Origin: an uncultured Paracoccaceae bacterium
GTDB taxonomy: Bacteria > Pseudomonadota > Alphaproteobacteria > Rhodobacterales > Rhodobacteraceae
Direction of reading: 5' to 3'
NCBI GenBank assembly: GCA_947495795.1
Contig: CANMAI010000009.1
Span: 124,001-188,000, forward strand
DNA length: 64,000 nt
A program made the position numbers and the translations under genes. Positions 53,377 to 63,382 of the stretch are shown here, one piece after another. How positions within the stretch are numbered: the first letter of the stretch is position 1; every line of letters begins with the position of its first letter. A model generated the notes under the pieces. The model ran no database searches. It was not told the DNA's origin and saw nothing but the letters and a program-made list of their open reading frames with translations.

Positions 53377-53775
53377 GTGACCCTGTTTGAAGCCGCGAAA
53401 GCCGCAAGAGAAAACGCCTATGCACCCTACTCCAATTTCAAGGTGGGTGCTGCCGTCCGAACGGATGCGGGAGAGGTTTTTACAGGCTGCAATGTAGAGA
53501 ATGTGGCCTATCCCGAAGGCACCTGTGCAGAGGCCGGGGCGCTTGCTGCAATGGCAGTGGCGGGGGGGCGAAAAGTGGTGGAAGTGCTTGTAATTGCAGA
53601 TAGTTCTGATCCGATCCCACCTTGCGGAGGGTGCCGCCAGAAGCTTGCGGAATTCGCATCCGGCGACGTTCCGGTGACCCTTGCGGATCTTCACGGCCCC
53701 CGCACGAAAACAACGGTGGCAGCCCTCCTTCCGGGCGCTTTCACCACGCACCATCTGGAGGATCGCGATGTCTGA
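53377..53775 (+). CDS. cdd: cytidine deaminase
   Basis: 132 residues, the homotetrameric type. Zinc ligands are visible: the HAE-equivalent is CAEAGALAAM (Cys/Glu near 50) and PPCGGCRQKL near 84 supplies two cysteines. It converts cytidine and deoxycytidine to uridine and deoxyuridine. GTG start with a GGAGA site. First gene of a six-gene salvage operon; its end overlaps deoC by eight bases. Confidence 0.94.
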   Translation: MTLFEAAKAARENAYAPYSNFKVGAAVRTDAGEVFTGCNVENVAYPEGTCAEAGALAAMAVAGGRKVVEVLVIADSSDPIPPCGGCRQKLAEFASGDVPVTLADLHGPRTKTTVAALLPGAFTTHHLEDRDV

Positions 53776-54529
53776 TCTCAAAATCGCAGCCGCCCGCGCG
53801 CTCGCGTGCCTTGACCTGACGAACCTGAATGATGATTGCACGTCAGAGGACGTTAAGTCTCTGTGCCAAAAGGCAAACACCCGGCACGGCCCCACCGCCG
53901 CAGTGTGTATCTGGCCGCAATTTGTAGAGGAGGCCAAGGGCCATCTCCTCGGCACGGGTATCCGTATCGCAACGGTCGTAAACTTCCCTGGCGGCGACGA
54001 ACCGGCAGAACAAGTGCTTGATATGACAGAGAAAGCCATCGCCGATGGGGCTGACGAGATCGACATGGTAATCCCCTACAAAGCTCTGATGGAAGGCAGC
54101 CCCGAGCTCACCTCGGCACTCGTCTCCCGGGTCACCAATGCGGCCGGCAACGCCCGCGTAAAAACCATTCTGGAAACAGGCATTCTCGGCGACGCCGAAC
54201 TGATCCAAGAGGCTTGCAAAGAGGCCCTGGAAGGGGGCGCAGATTTCCTGAAAACCTCCACCGGCAAAGTGGCTGTCAACGCTACTCCCGTGGCTGCAAG
54301 GCTCTTGCTGGAGGCTATCCGGGATAGTGGCAAGCCGGTTGGCTTTAAACCTGCGGGTGGCGTGAAAAATACAGCAGATGCAGCGGCTTACCTTGAACTA
54401 TGTGATGAGATCATGGGGCGAGAATGGGCGTCGCCCAGCACATTCCGCATCGGCGCATCCGGCGTTCTCACAGCACTTCTCGCAACACTTGATGGGGTAG
54501 ATACACCCGTTGAAACAGCAGGCTACTGA
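53768..54529 (+). CDS. deoC: deoxyribose-phosphate aldolase
   Basis: 253 residues. The class I aldolase barrel has the Schiff-base lysine in FLKTSTGK near 160-167 and the proton-relay lysine in GFKPAGGVK near 193. It splits 2-deoxyribose-5-phosphate to acetaldehyde and glyceraldehyde-3-phosphate, so deoxynucleosides can feed glycolysis. Overlaps cdd and the start of deoA. Confidence 0.94.
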
Positions 54530-55836
54530 TGCTGCCCGCCGAGATCATCGCCCTAAAGAGAGACGGCAAAACCCTGCCGCGCGAAGCCATCGAAGCCTTC
54601 GCAAAAGGCCTCGTGGACGAAACCTTCAGCGAAGGCCAAGCCGCGGCAATGGCCATGGCAATCTTCCTGAAGGGCATGTCCCAACCGGAGCGCGTGCACC
54701 TCACCGAAGCCATGCGAGACAGCGGCACCGTCCTCTTTTGGGACCTCCCGGGCCCGGTGATTGACAAGCATTCCACCGGCGGCGTGGGCGATAACGTTTC
54801 CCTCATACTTGGCCCCGCGCTGGCTGCATGCGGTGCCTACATCCCCATGATTTCCGGGCGTGGCCTTGGCCATACAGGGGGCACGCTGGATAAGTTCGAC
54901 GCTATCCCCGGCTATCAAACAACGCCAAATCTTGATCTTTTACAAAAGGTTACGCGGGAAGTTGGCTGTGCGATCATCGGTCAGACTTCCGATATTGCAC
55001 CGGCCGACAAGCGCCTCTATGCGATCCGCGATGTTACTGGAACTGTCGAGAGCATCGACCTTATTACTGCTTCGATCCTTTCAAAAAAGCTTGCGGCTGG
55101 CCTTGATACGCTGGTGCTGGATGTGAAGTTTGGTAACGGGGCGTTTATGCGTGATCAGGAGGAAGCCAAAAACCTTGCTGAAGCCCTCGTAAAAGTTGCC
55201 AACGATGCGGGCTGCCAGACAAGCGCATTGCTGAGCGACATGAATGAGCCACTCGCTTCGGCCGCGGGCAATGCGCTGGAAGTGCGAAACGCGGTCGATT
55301 TCCTCAGAGGAGAGGAGATCGACACGCGCCTCTGGGACGTTGTGGTGGCGCTCGGAGCAGAGGCACTGACAACCGCCGGATTGGCCACGGATAATACAGC
55401 CGGATCAGAGATGATGCAGACCGCACTGCAATCGGGCAAGGCGGCGGAGGTGTTTGGGCAGATGGTAACGGCGCTGGGCGGGCCTTCTGACCTTTTGGAG
55501 AAACCTCAATACCATCTTCATGAGGCTCCGGTTGTTGAGGAAATTTATCAACCAGATCAAGGGTTTGTATCATCGGTGGAAACACGATCCCTTGGCCTGA
55601 TCGTGATCGGGCTGGGTGGCGGGCGCAAGAAGGCCAACGACAGGATTGACTATCGAGTCGGCCTCGACTGGATCGCGGGAACCGGGCGATTTGTGGATGC
55701 AGAAACGCCGGTGGCGCGCATCCACGCGGCAAGCCCGGATGCAGCTGAAAAGGCGAAGGCAGATATCATCGGCGCGATTGCGATAAGCGAAAAGCCACCC
55801 GAAGAACGGCCTCTGATAGCGGAGCGTATTGCGTGA
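54529..55836 (+). CDS. deoA: thymidine phosphorylase
   Basis: 435 residues. The family 3 phosphoribosyltransferase-like fold shows [14 protein letters not shown] (near 83), [13 protein letters not shown] (near 112) and the lysine/aspartate KFGNGAFM near 202. It phosphorolyses thymidine and deoxyuridine to base plus 2-deoxyribose-1-phosphate. ATG overlaps the deoC stop by one base, and its end overlaps deoB by four. Confidence 0.95.
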
Positions 55837-57038
55837 CGAGGCGTGCCATACTTTGTGTTCTGGATTCTGTAGGATGCGGCGGAGCACCCGATGCAGATGC
55901 CTTTGGCGATGCTGGGGCGAACACATTGGGCCATATCGCCGAAGCCTGCGCAAACGGTCAGGCAGATGAAGGCCGCTCAGGCCCGCTTCACGTGCCAAAT
56001 CTCGATACGCTGGGCCTCGGTGCCGCAATCGCCCTCGCATCGGGCCTTCAACCGCCGGGGCTGACCGCACAGCCTGAAGGATTGTGGGGCGCGGCAACGG
56101 AGCTTTCCAACGGCAAGGATACACCCTCGGGCCATTGGGAACTGAGCGGCGTGCCCGTTCCGTTCGACTGGCACTACTTTCCGCAAACCGTTCCAACCTT
56201 CCCCACCTCGATAACCGATGCCCTCATTACGCGGGGCAAGCTTCCCGGCCTTCTGGGCAATTGCCACGCATCAGGAATGCCGATCATCCGAGATCTTGGC
56301 GAAGAGCATATCAGTAGTGGTAAGCCCATCTGCTACACATCTGTAGATAGTGTTTTTCAGATTGCAGCCCATGAAGAGACATTTGGCCTTCAGCGCCTGC
56401 TGGATCTCTGTGAGATTGCAGCAGAACTGGTGCATCCAATGCGGGTTGGCCGAGTGATCGCCCGCCCGTTTCTGGGCAAAAGTCCTGATACCTTCGAGCG
56501 AACGTCAAACCGCCGCGATTTTGCTATCCCCCCACCGGAACCTACACTTTGCGACCGGGTGGTGGCCTCTGGTGGGCGTGTTGTTGGCATCGGAAAGATC
56601 GGAGACATTTTTGCTCATCAGGGCATCAGTGAAGTGCGCAAGGCCACGAACGATATGGGCCTCTTTGATGAATTGCTGCAAGCCTTTGACACCCTTGAGT
56701 CAAGCGATTTGATCTTTGCCAATTTCGTTGAGTTTGACACGCTCTATGGTCATCCGAGGGATGTTGCGGGCTATGCCAGAGCGCTGGAGCAATTTGATGC
56801 CCGCATTCCGGAGCTGTTTGCGAAATTGCGAGAGGGCGATCTTCTGGTCTTTACTGCTGATCATGGGAATGACCCGACTTGGCGGGGGAACGATCATACC
56901 CGCGAGCGCGTTCCTGTTCTGATGACAGGAAGCGTTTCCGCCGGAGAGATAGGACATTGCGGCTTTGCGGATGTCGGTGAAAGTGTTGCCGCTCACCTGG
57001 AGCTGGAGCCCGGTGCACATGGAAAAAACTTGCTATGA
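55833..57038 (+). CDS. deoB: phosphopentomutase
   Basis: 401 residues, an alkaline-phosphatase superfamily mutase. Metal ligands show at [14 protein letters not shown] near 10, and [19 protein letters not shown] near 345 has the DHGND/H pair. It converts deoxyribose-1-phosphate to deoxyribose-5-phosphate, linking DeoA to DeoC. GTG start overlapping deoA (GTGA). Confidence 0.95.
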
Positions 57039-58024
57039 CAGATTGGTCGAAACTCCCGAAAACAGAATTGCATCTCCATCTTGAAGGTGCAGCACAACCG
57101 GACTTCATCCGCATGTTGGCGGCGGAGAAGTCGGTTGACCTTTCGGGCGTATTTGATGCGGATGGGGCTTATAAGTGGACTGACTTTGCTGAGTTTCTGA
57201 AAACCTATGAAGCGGCTTGCGAGGTTCTGAAAAGCCCGGAGGATTTCAGGCGGCTAACGGAGGCGGTGCTTGCCAAGTCTGCGGCAGATGGTGTCGTTTA
57301 TACGGAGATATTCATTGCCCCGGATATCTGCGGTGCGGGGGATGCCGTGGCATGGCGTGAATACCTTGATGCATTGTTTCAGGCGGCACGAAATGCCGAG
57401 GCGGCACATGGTATCGCGGCGCGGTTCATTTCAACATGCATCCGGAATCACGGGGCGGAGGCGGCGGAAAACGCCGCACGTCTTACGGCCGGTGCGGCCG
57501 GCGGGCTGCTGACGGGCTTTGGTATGGGCGGGGAAGAGCGTAATGGCTCGGCGCAGGACTTTGTGAAAGCCTTCGCCATCGCAGCGGAGGCTGGGCTGGG
57601 TATCACCAGCCATGCAGGCGAGTTGTGCGGTGCTTCGAGTGTAACGGAAACCCTCGACCATCTTCCGGTCAGCCGAATAGGGCACGGAGTGCGCGCTATA
57701 GAGGATCCGGCGCTCGTCGAAAGACTGGCGGAGGAGGGCATTGTGCTGGAAGTGAACCCGGGCTCGAACATAGCCCTTTCAGTTTTTGAAGATTGGACCG
57801 CGCATCCAGTCAAGCATCTGCGAGATGCAGGTGTGCCCGTAACAATTTCTACGGATGATCCGCCCTATTTTCATACTGATTTGCCACGTGAATACGAGAT
57901 GCTGGCTCAGACGTTTGGATGGCACAGTGAAGATTTTCTGGCTATGAACCTGACTGCCGCACACGCTGCTTTCTGCGATGAACAAACCCGCAGCACCATG
58001 ATCACACGCCTCACCGGAGCCTGA
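57035..58024 (+). CDS. add: adenosine deaminase
   Basis: 329 residues. [13 protein letters not shown] near 6-18 carries the zinc-binding HxH, then HAGE near 195, SRIGHGVRA near 215 and STDDPPYF near 272. It deaminates adenosine to inosine. Prokaryotic length and motif order are normal. The ATG overlaps the deoB stop by four bases. Downstream upp follows with a four-base gap. Confidence 0.93.
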
Positions 58025-58028
58025 GAGA

Positions 58029-58661
58029 ATGCCCAAGCATCTGACAATCGTAAATCATCCCCTGGTTCAGCATAAGCTTACCCTGATGCGCGAGAGGGCG
58101 ACCTCTACTGCTGTCTTTCGGCAGCTGTTGCGGGAGATAAGCCATCTACTGGCCTATGAAGTGACACGTGATCTGCCGACCACCACCAAGACCATAGACA
58201 CCCCGCTTGTGGAAATGGAAGCGCCGACGCTAAAGGGCAAAAAACTCGCACTTATATCCATTTTGCGGGCGGGCAATGGACTTTTGGATGGCGTGCTGGA
58301 TCTCATTCCATCCGCTAGGGTTGGATTTGTTGGCCTTTACCGCGATGAGGCAACTCTGAAGCCTGTGCAGTACTACTTTAAGGTGCCGGGTGAGCTTTCG
58401 TCTCGCGTAGTGATCGCTGTCGATCCGATGCTCGCGACGGGTAATTCGAGTGCGGCTGCAGTCGATCTTCTGAAGGGTGCGGGAGCAACGGACATCCGCT
58501 TCCTTTGTCTGCTTGCGGCGCCCGAGGGAGTTGAGCGGATGAAAGAAGCGCATCCGGATGTTCCCATCATCACCGCAGCTATGGATGAACGTCTGAATGA
58601 GAAGGGCTACATTCTTCCGGGTCTTGGCGATGCTGGAGACAGGATGTTTGGCACCAAGTAG
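58029..58661 (+). CDS. upp: uracil phosphoribosyltransferase
   Basis: 210 residues. The PRPP loop [15 protein letters not shown] near 130 and the C-terminal [16 protein letters not shown] near 197 are diagnostic for Upp. It makes UMP from uracil and PRPP, capturing base released by DeoA or by uridine breakdown. It ends the operon two bases from the convergent pyrD; no terminator hairpin is visible. Confidence 0.96.
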
Positions 58662-58663
58662 TT

Positions 58664-59674
58664 CTATCCCGCCTTGGCGGCGAGATGTGCGTCAATGCCC
58701 TTGAGTATGCGGGGCACGAGGCGCATCCCTTCATAGACAAGAGCGGAATAGAGTTGGAGTGCTGTCGCCCCTGCTTCGAGTTTTGCAATGGCGTCTTCGG
58801 CTGTGGATATCCCGCCGACGCCTATCAAAGGCAATGCCGTCCGCGCATTCAGGGCGCGAAGCACTTCCGTTGATCGACGAAAGAGCGGTGCTCCGGATAG
58901 TCCTCCGGATTCTGTTCTTTGGCGGTCAATGACGTTCTCGCGGGACAGCGTTGTATTGGTTGCGATAATTCCCGCAAGTCCCGCCTCCTCCGATACAGAG
59001 ACAATATCATCCAGATCCGAAAGTGCGAGATCAGGTGCAATTTTGAGAAACAACGGAACCGGGTTGGTGAGAGCAGCATTGGCATTTGATGCAACAGTCA
59101 GCACAGCACGTAGTGCATCCTTTCCCTGTAGGTCTCTCAGCTGTTCCGTATTGGGTGAAGATACGTTGATCGTCGCGAAATCCACATGATCGCCACAGCG
59201 CGTAAGGACCTTCCCGTAGTCAGCAGCGCGGTCCTCGCTGTCCTTGTTAGCACCGAGATTAATACCAAGCACACCGCCCTTGGGGCGCTGCTCAAGTCGT
59301 TCGGCAACGAACTCCATACCCTCGTTGTTGAAGCCGAACCGATTGATGACCGCGCGGTCTTTAGTAAGCCGGAAGAGCCGTGGCTTCGGATTGCCCGGCT
59401 GGGGCCGGGGGGTAACCGCGCCGATCTCGATAAATCCGAACCCGGCGGCCATCAACGGACGGATGACCTCCGCATTTTTGTCGAACCCGGCGGCAAGACC
59501 GAGGGGATTGGGCAGTTTGAGATCCGCGAGCTTGGTTTCAAGGCGCGGCCTGCGGAGAGGTGAGGGAAGTGGTGCAATACCTGCCTTCAGCGCTGTGATT
59601 GCCAAAGTGTGCGCACGTTCAGGATCCAGCTGTCGGAGTGCGGCAAGCCCCATTCTTTCAATAAGATCCCTCAC
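58664..59674 (-). CDS. pyrD: dihydroorotate dehydrogenase, quinone type
   Basis: 336 residues, class 2. An N-terminal amphipathic helix (about 1-25) binds the membrane; GLAAGFDKNAEV near 60 and INVSSPNTEQLR near 170 with the class 2 catalytic Ser are present, and the FMN phosphate site GVGGISTAEDA is near 290. It oxidises dihydroorotate in pyrimidine synthesis, passing electrons to ubiquinone. Its ATG overlaps the DUF952 stop region by four bases. Confidence 0.95.
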   Translation of the reverse strand: MRDLIERMGLAALRQLDPERAHTLAITALKAGIAPLPSPLRRPRLETKLADLKLPNPLGLAAGFDKNAEVIRPLMAAGFGFIEIGAVTPRPQPGNPKPRLFRLTKDRAVINRFGFNNEGMEFVAERLEQRPKGGVLGINLGANKDSEDRAADYGKVLTRCGDHVDFATINVSSPNTEQLRDLQGKDALRAVLTVASNANAALTNPVPLFLKIAPDLALSDLDDIVSVSEEAGLAGIIATNTTLSRENVIDRQRTESGGLSGAPLFRRSTEVLRALNARTALPLIGVGGISTAEDAIAKLEAGATALQLYSALVYEGMRLVPRILKGIDAHLAAKAG

Positions 59675-60003
59675 AACAAGCCTGAGAAATCATGGGTGCC
59701 GTCGCTCAAAGGCAAGGGTTTGGCCCAAAGCACGTCATCAATTTTCAAGACGCGATAAAGATGTGGAAAGAGCGCTCCACCGCGTGAAGGTTCCCACTTT
59801 AGCCCGCTCAACCCTTCGCTCTCCACTGCCAGCAATACCAAGCCTTCTTCCGCCGCAAAATGCTTCGCTGCCGTTTCTTCCGCCTGCTCTGAAGTGGAGA
59901 AGTGAATGAAGCCATCCATGACGTCAATCGGGGCGCCCATAGTCTTTCCTTCAGCTTCGAAAGCATCCCACTCTGGCCCTCGGAAAATCTTGTATATCAA
60001 CAT
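59671..60003 (-). CDS. DUF952-family protein
   Basis: 110 residues with the DUF952 pattern: MLIYKIFRGPEWDAF, DGFIHFSTSEQAEETAAKHF near 30 and LKWEPSRGGALFPHLYR near 70. This small fold resembles glutathione-S-transferase-adjacent or ADP-ribosyl-like domains and has no known reaction. It is coupled to pyrD by a four-base overlap, an arrangement I recall as common in Rhodobacterales. Confidence 0.88.
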   Translation of the reverse strand: MLIYKIFRGPEWDAFEAEGKTMGAPIDVMDGFIHFSTSEQAEETAAKHFAAEEGLVLLAVESEGLSGLKWEPSRGGALFPHLYRVLKIDDVLWAKPLPLSDGTHDFSGLL

Positions 60004-60034: not shown

Positions 60035-60967
60035 TTACCCTTGTGGGGTCATGGCGGGGCGTGCTCGGCCGCGTTCCAGGCCAAGCTGTCGTTCGCGCCA
60101 TATGATGAAAAGGCCTGCCACCATGATCAGGCCCGCGCCTGCCATCGTCTGACTTGTCGGGATCTCCTGGAAGAGCACATAGCCGAGTGCCAGCGCCATC
60201 AGCATCGAAACGTACTCGAAAGGAGCGATCACGGATGTTGGTGCCCCACGATAGGCGCTGGTAAGGAAAATCTGACCGAGCCCCCCGAAGAGCCCTGACA
60301 GCACGAGCACAACTGATACCCACCAACCCGGCCATACCCAACCAAACGGGATCGTTGTGAGGGACAGCAGTGTCGTGCTGAGCGAGAAATAGAAGACGAT
60401 CGCCGCGGTTGTTTCAGACCTGACAAGCTTGCGCACAAAGACCTGCGCCAATGCCGCCAGAACAGCTCCCATCAAAGCTATAATCGCACCAAGCGCCTCT
60501 CCTTCGGAGACCTCTTCGACCCCCGAGACGGAGAGCCTCGGCAGGAGGATGATTATCACGCCGATCAGACCTATGAAAACGGCGGTGAGGCGAAAGATCC
60601 GCACCTCCTCTCCTAGAAACATCGCCGCAAAGATCACAATAAGAAGGGGTGTTGCATATCCGATAGCTGTGACTTCTGGCAGCGGTAAAAGCCCGAGCGC
60701 TGTGAAGCCACACGCCATCGCGCTTGCACCCACCAGCCCCCGCCATACGTGACCGAAGGGATTTTTTGTCTCCAATCCATGTGCGAGATCGTGCCGTACC
60801 AGAAGCCAAACAATAATTACCGGAATGGCGAAGAAAGAGCGAAAGAAGATGCTCTCACCTGGCGGAACACCTGTGCCAGCCGCGTATTTGATGCATGTCG
60901 CCATGGCCATGAAACAGGCAACGGAGAGGATTTTAAGGCCGATGGAGGGCAGTGTGGACATGGACAA
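60035..60967 (-). CDS. DMT/EamA-family transporter (second)
   Basis: 310 residues with ten hydrophobic helices in two EamA halves. The arginine-rich end (RERQLGLERGRARP) is cytoplasmic. It resembles the S-adenosylmethionine or riboflavin-type exporter group only in layout; substrate is unknown. It lies 31 bases upstream-side of the DUF952 gene on the same strand and could be co-transcribed with it and pyrD. Confidence 0.85.
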   Translation of the reverse strand: MSMSTLPSIGLKILSVACFMAMATCIKYAAGTGVPPGESIFFRSFFAIPVIIVWLLVRHDLAHGLETKNPFGHVWRGLVGASAMACGFTALGLLPLPEVTAIGYATPLLIVIFAAMFLGEEVRIFRLTAVFIGLIGVIIILLPRLSVSGVEEVSEGEALGAIIALMGAVLAALAQVFVRKLVRSETTAAIVFYFSLSTTLLSLTTIPFGWVWPGWWVSVVLVLSGLFGGLGQIFLTSAYRGAPTSVIAPFEYVSMLMALALGYVLFQEIPTSQTMAGAGLIMVAGLFIIWRERQLGLERGRARPAMTPQG

Positions 60968-61018: not shown

Positions 61019-61387
61019 TCAGCCTACTGACTTCCATCGGGAGAGGGCGGTTTGGGGGATATGAGCCTCCACAGCGGCTGTGGCGACAATATGGACCGTG
61101 CCATCGGCCTCATCTGCCACGTTCAAACCGCCGAGTTTTACCTGCACGCTTGCCTGCCCGTGCGGCAAAACATTAGTGACCCGCGCCCTGTCTACCTCTT
61201 CAGGCTTTTGCACGCCGATCGTTACCTTGATGCGCATTTCATCCGGGCTGATATCGAGATGCCGAAAGAGTGTGATGGAGCTATGGTGTAAAGCATCTTC
61301 CACGGCGCGGCAGGCGGCCTTTGTATAATCCTGGCCGTAAAGGTCATTGCCTGTGCCCACCTCTATGATAACGCGGTGAAGGCTCAT
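61019..61387 (-). CDS. Lin0512-family protein (second of a tandem pair)
   Basis: 122 residues. VIIEVGTGNDLYGQDYTKAA at the start, ALHHSSITLF, then IGVQKPEEVDRARVTNVLPHG are the Lin0512 (conserved hypothetical) pattern. It aligns over its full length with the upstream neighbour at 61384 while differing at about half of positions. The function of the family is not known. The start overlaps the neighbour's stop by four bases. Confidence 0.82.
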   Translation of the reverse strand: MSLHRVIIEVGTGNDLYGQDYTKAACRAVEDALHHSSITLFRHLDISPDEMRIKVTIGVQKPEEVDRARVTNVLPHGQASVQVKLGGLNVADEADGTVHIVATAAVEAHIPQTALSRWKSVG

Positions 61388-61734
61388 TCTTCAGTCTCGA
61401 GATCGAGTGAAACGATAATTGCGGCGTTGGCCATGATCGTCATCCCGGAGCCATCTGGCTTGGGTACATCCAGCCCTCCACTAGACACCTCAATCTCCAC
61501 CGTCCCGTAGGGGAAAACCGCCTTCAAACGGGTTTTGTCCACAGCATCCGGGCTCTGCACGCCGATCTCGGCTCTGATCTGCATTTTGTCCTTCGGTGCG
61601 CCGAACGCTTCAGCCAGTGAAATGGAATTGTGCCAGAGCGCATCCCGCAAGGCGCGAATTGCGGCCTCAGTGTAGTCACCCCTGCGAAGAGATGTGCCCA
61701 GCCCAAACTCCACCAAAAGGCGCTTCATCGCCAT
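61384..61734 (-). CDS. Lin0512-family protein (first of a tandem pair)
   Basis: 116 residues, same family: LLVEFGLGTSLRRGDYTEAA, ALWHNSISLAEAF, IGVQSPDAVDKTRLKAVFPYG. It starts 37 bases after the aminotransferase stop and is likely co-transcribed with it. As an overlapping paralogue pair the two proteins may form a heteromer. Confidence 0.83.
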   Translation of the reverse strand: MAMKRLLVEFGLGTSLRRGDYTEAAIRALRDALWHNSISLAEAFGAPKDKMQIRAEIGVQSPDAVDKTRLKAVFPYGTVEIEVSSGGLDVPKPDGSGMTIMANAAIIVSLDLETEE

Positions 61735-61771: not shown

Positions 61772-63151
61772 TCAACTAAGATGCCCCTCCTCTTTGGCCC
61801 AGTTCAGCGTAGCATCCAGCGCTGCCTCCATAGGCGCAAAAAGCTCCTCCAGTTCGTCTTCTGTTATGATCATTGGGGGGCAGACGGCGATGATATCGCC
61901 AAGCGCTCGCATGATGCTGCCCCGCTTCAGCAATTCAGCGGAAAGGTAGGCGCCAACCTTGCCGGGCGCTTCAAAGCCATTTCTCCCTTCGGGTGCCAAC
62001 TCTAGGCATCCCATCAGGCCGCACATACGGGCCTCACCCACCAACGGGTGCTCCTCCGCCTTTCTCAGAAGGCGGTGCAATGCTGGTGATACGTCCCGCA
62101 CATGGCCGACGATGTTGCGCGTCTCGTAGATCTGCAGAGCCTTTATGCCAACTGCGCAGCCGAGGGGATGACCGCCATAGGTAAAACCATGCCCGAAAGT
62201 GCCGATCTTTCCGGTGTTGGCCTCAATTGCCTCCGCTACCTCGCGGTTGATCGCCACGGCGGAAAGCGGTGCGTACCCACCCGTCAGCTGTTTGGCCATA
62301 GAAACGGAAGTGGGGTTCATTCCGAGCGTTTCTGCACCGAACCAGTTTCCTGTACGTCCGAAGCCTGTGATCACCTCGTCATCAATCAGGAGAATGTCGT
62401 AGCGCGAAAGGATAGGCTCTATGGCTGCGAAATATCCTTCAGGCGGTACGATCACTCCGCCCGCACCCATCACGGGCTCCGCGATAAAGGCGGCGACGGT
62501 TTCCGGCCCTTCCCGCTCAATCAGCGCTTCCAGATCCGTTGCTAGACGGGCCACGAACTCTGCCTCGCTTTCGCCTGGCTTTCCCTCTTTCCAGTGATGA
62601 GGCGTGGTCGTGTGAAGAATGCGATCCACCGGTAAGTCGAAATCGCGATGATTGTACGGCAGGCCGGTGAGCGAACCAGAGACAATGGTGACCCCGTGAT
62701 AACCTTTGATGCGACTGATGATCTTCTTTTTTTCAGGCCGCCCTATTGCATTATTGTAGTACCAGACGAGTTTGATCTGCGTGTCGTTCGCCTCTGATCC
62801 AGAGGATTGATAGATCACCCGGGCCATATTGCCAGGTGCCTTCTCCTTGATCATCTCGGCCAGTTCCATCGCCGGCTCATGGCTGCGCCCCCCGAAGAGG
62901 TGGTAGTAGGGGAGCTTATCCATCTGCTCTTTGGCAGCATCGATAAGCTCAGGATCGGAAAACCCGAGGCCGCAACACCAGAGCCCGGCCATCCCTTCGA
63001 TATAGGATTTGCCTGCATCATCAAACACACGCACACCCTTGCCGCTAGCGATGATGTGGGCCCCGTTTTCCCGGAGATCAACGGCATTCGTGTAAGGATG
63101 CAGCAAGGCTTCAGCGTCGCGTTGCTGCATATTTGTCAGGATCGTGTTCAC
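61772..63151 (-). CDS. class III aminotransferase (omega-amino acid type)
   Basis: 459 residues. The PLP lysine is in VSMAKQLTGGYAPLSAV near 290, the cofactor aspartate in LLIDDEVITGFGRTG near 258 and the phosphate-contacting SSGSEANDTQIKLV near 116. It fits beta-alanine/omega-amino-acid:pyruvate or diamine transaminases; substrate is unresolved. GTG 63151 is selected: GGGAGG lies seven bases before it, inside the longer ATG form at 63166. Confidence 0.88.
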   Translation of the reverse strand: MNTILTNMQQRDAEALLHPYTNAVDLRENGAHIIASGKGVRVFDDAGKSYIEGMAGLWCCGLGFSDPELIDAAKEQMDKLPYYHLFGGRSHEPAMELAEMIKEKAPGNMARVIYQSSGSEANDTQIKLVWYYNNAIGRPEKKKIISRIKGYHGVTIVSGSLTGLPYNHRDFDLPVDRILHTTTPHHWKEGKPGESEAEFVARLATDLEALIEREGPETVAAFIAEPVMGAGGVIVPPEGYFAAIEPILSRYDILLIDDEVITGFGRTGNWFGAETLGMNPTSVSMAKQLTGGYAPLSAVAINREVAEAIEANTGKIGTFGHGFTYGGHPLGCAVGIKALQIYETRNIVGHVRDVSPALHRLLRKAEEHPLVGEARMCGLMGCLELAPEGRNGFEAPGKVGAYLSAELLKRGSIMRALGDIIAVCPPMIITEDELEELFAPMEAALDATLNWAKEEGHLS

Positions 63152-63382
63152 GGTGGCGCCTCCCATTAATTACGCCACCAAATCACGGGAACAGGGCTTC
63201 TGCAACGAGTTGCCTGCGGCTTGGGCAGATGAGCAAGATGATAGCTGCAACAAAAGATTGTAGGTATTGAGCCTTGGGGTTTTTCACTCGCGTAGCGTAA
63301 CCCCGCTTTCTCCGGGCTGGTCAGCAGGCAACGCCTTCGCTAGCATCTTGGCAGTTTGCGACTCTGACAGGGAAACTCAAAA

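Follow-up and report, generated by a model that had tools for sequence, protein, structure and literature searches.

A jointly inherited tandem pair of Lin0512 genes in Alphaproteobacteria, candidate subunits of one hetero-oligomer

Lin0512 proteins (PF09585) form a family on which no paper was found among open-licence PMC articles, the matches being unrelated by title. One member, Npun_R1471 of Nostoc punctiforme, has a structure (3c8l) labelled 'FtsZ-like protein of unknown function', and it belongs to the same family with a profile E of 2.5e-35. In Listeria, Azospirillum, Paenibacillus, Bradyrhizobium and others, Lin0512 members are present as one copy at the locus, whereas two diverged copies are found in the DNA studied here, a stretch of 64,000 nucleotides from an uncultured Paracoccaceae bacterium (hereafter the window). 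Among the best 80 named loci from a profile search of genome contigs, 71 were single-copy within the stretch and 9 carried two; named carriers of a pair include Thiotrichaceae, Chromatiales and Pseudomonadales.

The two copies, here called LinA (upstream) and LinB (downstream), sit in a same-strand run that continues past the pair into genes for an EamA transporter, a DUF952 protein and PyrD:

61772..63166, minus strand: class-III aminotransferase of the PRK06105 subfamily, 464 aa (Pfam and NCBIfam)
61384..61734, minus strand: LinA, upstream Lin0512 gene, 116 aa, ATG at 61734 (open reading frame and family profiles)
61384..61387, minus strand: ATGA overlap, the LinA stop with the LinB start (junction sequence)
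61019..61387, minus strand: LinB, downstream Lin0512 gene, 122 aa (open reading frame and family profiles)
60035..60967, minus strand: EamA-family transporter, downstream of the pair, in 3/3 genomes of the genus (open reading frame and Pfam)
59671..60003, minus strand: DUF952 protein, downstream, in 3/3 genomes of the genus (open reading frame and Pfam)
58664..59674, minus strand: dihydroorotate dehydrogenase pyrD, last gene of the same-strand run (named by reading the sequence)

The initial annotation had described two full-length Lin0512 members that overlap by four bases behind an aminotransferase, and this description was borne out. Both open reading frames are intact and share positions 61384-61387, with the junction reading ...GAATGAGCC. 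PF09585 matched LinA with E 8.3e-32 and LinB with E 1e-33 (110.1 and 116.2 bits, respectively, against a curated cut-off of 23.4), covering model positions 1-114 and 1-113 of 114. TIGR02058 of NCBIfam gave 64.4 bits for LinB and 57.7 for LinA, the latter narrowly above the cut-off of 56.85. The two proteins are 41% identical across 106 residues, and a search of the window's own genome returned no Lin0512 copy beyond them. Compared with the congener G984, LinA showed 55 silent codon changes and 27 replacements, and LinB 48 and 42; this excess of silent changes fits coding genes under constraint, LinB more loosely than LinA. The aminotransferase, whose best subfamily is PRK06105/NF004767, is separated from LinA by 37 bases. 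On the plus strand at 53681-58661 lies a nucleoside salvage run, by reading deoC, deoA, deoB, add and upp, which stops just short of the convergent pyrD-DUF952-EamA-linBA run.

AlphaFold2 models were obtained for LinB (pLDDT 91.8, mb1b4006c4bdc) and LinA (pLDDT 90.7, m81435885e440), both with a pTM of 0.85, and strands and helices follow nearly the same order in the two. The LinB model, with which the fold searches were run, aligned to 3c8l over 111 residues (VIA-align Z 16.5, rmsd 2.0). 3c8l contains a DQHGQ loop; LinA is without it. The C-terminal domain of FtsZ is similar in fold to the LinB model (Z 6.6-7.9 over about 83-101 residues, 8-15% identity), where, as the tool itself warns, a Z below 8 may mean a common arrangement only. 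FtsZ and tubulin have in addition an N-terminal GTPase domain that is missing from LinA and LinB, which, at 116 and 122 aa, consist of PF09585 only. AroH-type chorismate mutase, IspF and Rid proteins gave weak Foldseek matches to LinB with similar topology (TM about 0.3-0.4) and were absent from the sequence-search matches. In proteins of this general fold, active sites are often located between subunits.

The family was detected in 89 of the 149 genomes of a sample from the window's order, and exactly two copies were present in 88 of these 89. The lone exception, G044, had one copy, of LinA type. This gene (L330, 7287-7598) lies away from the contig end in a 99% complete draft, in which a second copy was not found. 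In a class sample, 29 of 385 genomes were positive, five of them order genomes already counted; two copies were found in 22 of the 24 positives outside the order, and one copy each in G492 and G505. The family is rare in Gammaproteobacteria (4/274 genomes): two copies in the sample centre G535 and in G1243, one copy in G1128 and one match under the cut-off, with the qualification that the phylum and class samples drawn around a centre genome, such as G530 or G535, include that genome, picked because it was family-positive. The single copy of G1128 is closer to LinB (130.6 bits with the B profile versus 118.1 with the A profile). Two positives, G341 of the class sample and the Rhodospirillaceae metagenome-assembled genome G537, have their two copies on different contigs and so may have them truly unlinked. 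G537 combines a LinA-type copy with a second D-x-H-G copy that neither profile claims (A 124.0, B 121.5 bits).

We also looked within the window's genus for relatives having a single copy with the same neighbours, the finding that would have counted against the initial annotation, and there were none, as all three genomes carry two copies. The congener G985, which is 77% complete, keeps LinA, LinB, the transporter, DUF952 and pyrD. Its LinB (L250, 1896-2534) is strongly diverged, scoring 69 bits and having DRTG in place of the loop, and is still paired with LinA and followed by the same downstream genes.

The arrangement of the pair is conserved as well. The two genes were adjacent in 88/88 pairs of the order (the window, 83 fetched loci and four pairs by coordinates) and, by coordinates, in 21/22 class-sample pairs outside it. 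With separate A and B profiles, the order was A then B in all 50 loci of a second set, in which the distance from the LinA stop to the start of the LinB domain match ranged from -8 to +27 bases. Conservation of the pair and of its order, which the initial annotation had named as a check, was thus observed. Among 67 loci, a LinB start candidate was found -11 to +16 bases from the LinA stop in 67/67; 43 of them allow a 4-base overlap and four more a 1-base overlap, the other 20 lying between -11 and +16. We infer that LinA and LinB may be translationally coupled through the ATGA overlap, and such coupling would favour LinA:LinB assembly at an equal ratio.

A tree of 148 rows placed the upstream genes in one clade (48/48, support 99/86) and the downstream genes in a second (47/48); it was built on 120 columns after 43 single-copy rows had been dropped by name as near duplicates, and its deep forks are partly unresolved. 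L074_B is the exception and falls among Bradyrhizobium singles. Rows from both Alpha- and Gammaproteobacteria fall within the LinA clade as well as the LinB clade, and Amylibacter and Silicimonas are near rows, which suggests Rhodobacterales as the window's order. A single duplication, after which the two genes were inherited jointly and were lost or transferred many times, would be enough for this tree. Collectively, the sequence comparisons point to the pair as an old unit, inherited jointly and in fixed order in many Alphaproteobacteria and a few Gammaproteobacteria. Its source would be a single-copy, presumably homomeric Lin0512 ancestor, duplicated in proteobacteria to give LinA and LinB.

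The two copies differ in the loop that corresponds to D-x-H-G. Position 15 is D in 51/51 single-copy proteins and 47/47 LinB but in 20/47 LinA, and position 18 is G in exactly the same proportions. Position 17 is H in 49/51 singles (R in two) and H or Y in 47/47 LinB, and it is R in 42/47 LinA. LinA has W at position 34 in 47/47 and N at position 36 in 47/47, the latter position being S in 47/47 LinB. These group counts leave out the L074 rows and L173, and they count sequences, not independent changes. In the window, LinA has S15-x-R17-R18 in place of D-x-H-G, with W34 present, and LinB retains D15-x-Y17-G18. LinA has not lost the loop completely: D15 and G18 each remain in 20/47, and H17 is still found in the LinA-type copies of L160 (among the 47), L173 and L251 (both outside the 47). 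The asymmetry is in keeping with a heteromer whose subunits have divided roles, and it is the strongest hint of such a division.

On these grounds, we propose with moderate confidence that LinA and LinB are obligate partners of one hetero-oligomer with a shared site. Near all-or-none inheritance, fixed order, near overlap, a tree compatible with one duplication and the weakened LinA loop all argue for the heteromer; of the two parts of the proposal, assembly of LinA with LinB is probably the safer and the shared-site detail the less likely. LinAB would then be a small hetero-oligomer with an FtsZ C-terminal-domain-like (AroH/IspF-like) alpha/beta fold. LinB may contribute the ancestral D-x-H/Y-G loop and LinA R17 and W34, to form one site across the subunit interface; this placement is suggested by analogy with fold relatives that have their sites between subunits.

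Two homomers with separate jobs, encoded in one transcript, would yield much of the same pattern. LinA and LinB would in that case have been sub- or neofunctionalised for different ligands and kept together by a shared promoter and pathway. Consistent with this are the identity of 41%, the residues peculiar to each lineage (W34 and N36 in LinA, S36 in LinB), the lone LinA-type copy of G044 and the lone copy nearer LinB of G1128. However, inheritance is nearly all-or-none in the order sample, and G537 keeps both copies although they lie on different contigs. We consider two homomers unlikely. The initial annotation had suggested an obligate heteromer, and its claim gains evolutionary support from two-copy counts of 88/89 and 22/24, the order of the genes and the loop asymmetry, with the lone copies in G044 and G1128 as exceptions. 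These two copies speak against the heteromer, as do the second copy of G537 that neither profile claims, the placement of L074_B, the diverged LinB of G985 and the partial retention of the loop in LinA.

The initial annotation had further tied the pair to amine or amino-acid metabolism through the adjacent aminotransferase, and this part of it was not supported. According to such a role, the pair would serve the class-III aminotransferase as an accessory factor, dealing for example with an unstable aldehyde or imine product. In its favour, the pair in G984 also has beside it an aminotransferase, 79% identical to that of the window. Over 117 pair loci, however, an adjacent orthologue was found in G984 and the window genome (G000) only, and in G985 (77% complete) the pair locus is without it, so that the link is kept in two of the three genomes of the genus. 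Class-III aminotransferases of any kind lay less than 1 kb from the pair in 6 of the 67 loci, none at 1-5 kb and one beyond. Since family-positive genomes contain 4-13 class-III aminotransferase matches per 3.6-5.6 Mb, we estimate that this density would put about 0.3 within 1 kb across the 67 loci, which makes a weak excess possible; the test was post hoc, prompted by the window, and its queries were drawn from the near cases. The six cases reduce to four at the genus level. In the second set of 50 loci, two lay within 1 kb (G029 g8 and G061 g39), in genera that the first set had already contributed, and a third at 3.4 kb (G084).

The aminotransferases near pairs also differ in kind. Those scanned belong to four subfamilies, with varying positions and strands; three of the four are omega-type by name or nearness (PRK06105, PRK07482 and AptA), which would suit the amine role, and the L174 case is ArgD. 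Rid-family and several AroH structures among the weak Foldseek matches also count in its favour. With linkage within the genus only and different subfamilies, positions and strands elsewhere, we rejected the aminotransferase as a conserved partner of the pair and regard the amine role as very unlikely.

Other neighbours did not recur strongly. Genes in unannotated loci were called by a crude script of our own, and neighbour lists may contain wrong starts or false open reading frames; of 72 same-strand neighbours, 63 were scanned and nine dropped as short, false-ORF-like or with overlong starts. With Pfam, no family had more than six members among the 63: ABC transporter ATPase 6, EamA 6 (three from the window's genus), CobO 5, nitroreductase (BluB-like by reading) 4, GATase_3 2 and Aminotran_3 3, the last of which would be 4 had the G984 aminotransferase not been among the nine.

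The CobO, BluB-like and GATase_3 neighbours raise the possibility that the pair assists corrinoid synthesis. Supporting this, cobO was found within about 3.2 kb of the pair in 16/67 and 16/50 loci, 32/117 altogether, and at some loci the pair is 0-30 bases away from cobO, cobQ or bluB. Tight cobO-linA-linB-cobQ runs are present in L061 (8096-11376), L257 (8985-11736), L279 and L288, and in other genera of the window's order bluB follows linB (cobO ... linA-linB-bluB). But all 32 loci come from one order and may stem from a single insertion next to cobO. In genomes from outside the order, cobQ was above the cut-off in 14/22 two-copy alphaproteobacterial genomes versus 16/26 family-negative ones, a rough comparison in which most of the smaller G149-G170 genomes had been dropped and the control rate was thereby raised. 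The comparison covered 54 family-positive genomes and 26 alphaproteobacterial genomes without the family (7 of the 21 negatives in G149-G170 and all of G171-G189); it left out the positives G687, G704, G712, G736, G737, G759 and G928, the below-cut-off G676 and G1129, and the order-sample genomes. Firmer than the rates, cobQ above the cut-off is missing from eight of the 22 pair genomes, six of which are at least 99% complete (G214, G227, G256, G332, G448 and G525). An obligate cobalamin role of the pair was rejected on this account, and we give little credence to assistance in corrinoid synthesis as such.

With no neighbour family above six members, and with the aminotransferase and cobalamin links failing, the pair is best seen as a self-contained module. 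LinAB would most likely act on small molecules, as an enzyme or a binding protein, and would stand alone, outside the aminotransferase pathway.

The single-copy loci offer a different setting. In the Desulfobacterota (the G530 phylum sample), genes for E1-alpha, E1-beta, E2 and an AcoX-like protein occur on the same strand near Lin0512 in 9/19 loci, and in seven of these nine Lin0512 lies exactly between E2 and E1-alpha. The same acoABCX-like setting was found at the named loci L155, L163, L165, L166, L169 and L172, three of which share their contigs with L215, L217 and L218. L155 (4277-11962) reads E2 - Lin0512 - E1-alpha - E1-beta - AcoX-like (NAD kinase domain) - DUF6506, together with a divergent sigma-54 regulator, and runs of this type are also seen in L163, L165, L169, L215, L216 and L220-L222, all Desulfobacterota. 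The function of AcoX in acetoin clusters is given as unknown in one report (PMC3543383). The other 10/19 Desulfobacterota loci showed no aco-type genes near Lin0512. In seven of these ten (L205, L208-L210 and L212-L214), a Lin0512 of DQHGQDN type stands beside a conserved 278-aa AAA ATPase, named by reading, and at least three of the ten contain a ferredoxin/ASKHA-like protein that, also by reading, may be a corrinoid-protein reactivator.

From this setting, the pair could be taken as an assembly or cofactor factor for 2-oxo acid or acetoin dehydrogenase complexes. The aco-type operons around single-copy Lin0512 speak for it; against it are the ten Desulfobacterota loci without aco genes and the surroundings of the pair itself, where aco-type genes were found in 0/20 order loci, not in the window and in 1/20 other alphaproteobacterial loci (L089, on the opposite strand). 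Moreover, AcoX was detected in just two of the 149 order genomes, each a carrier of the pair, while the family is in 89. An acetoin dehydrogenase link for the pair was rejected, as it holds for part of the Desulfobacterota single copies only, and a role of the pair in such complexes seems highly improbable. Acetolactate synthase-like thiamine enzymes were found beside Bradyrhizobium singles in 12/13 loci and near some order pairs also. As a common link these were set aside, the two that were scanned belonging to different subfamilies, PRK08322 and PRK08199.

A broader version of the heteromeric reading can be formulated, which we regard as unlikely. LinAB would be a heteromeric enzyme with its site between two unlike subunits, LinB being the 'catalytic' one (D-x-H/Y-G) and LinA the 'binding' one (R17, W34), and it would derive from a homomer whose role in Desulfobacterota is to serve acetoin-type dehydrogenase complexes. 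Members of the family would then act generally as accessory enzymes on the reactive intermediates that arise in chemistry with bound cofactors (thiamine, lipoyl, corrinoid, PLP).

The aminotransferase drops out as a misleading functional clue, and the aco-type operon of Desulfobacterota comes in as another for the family. Lin0512, an uncharacterised family for which one structure has been solved, also exists in a two-gene version in which loop residues are split between the copies. This would open a route to its function, through the study of LinA and LinB together, at two asymmetric sites.
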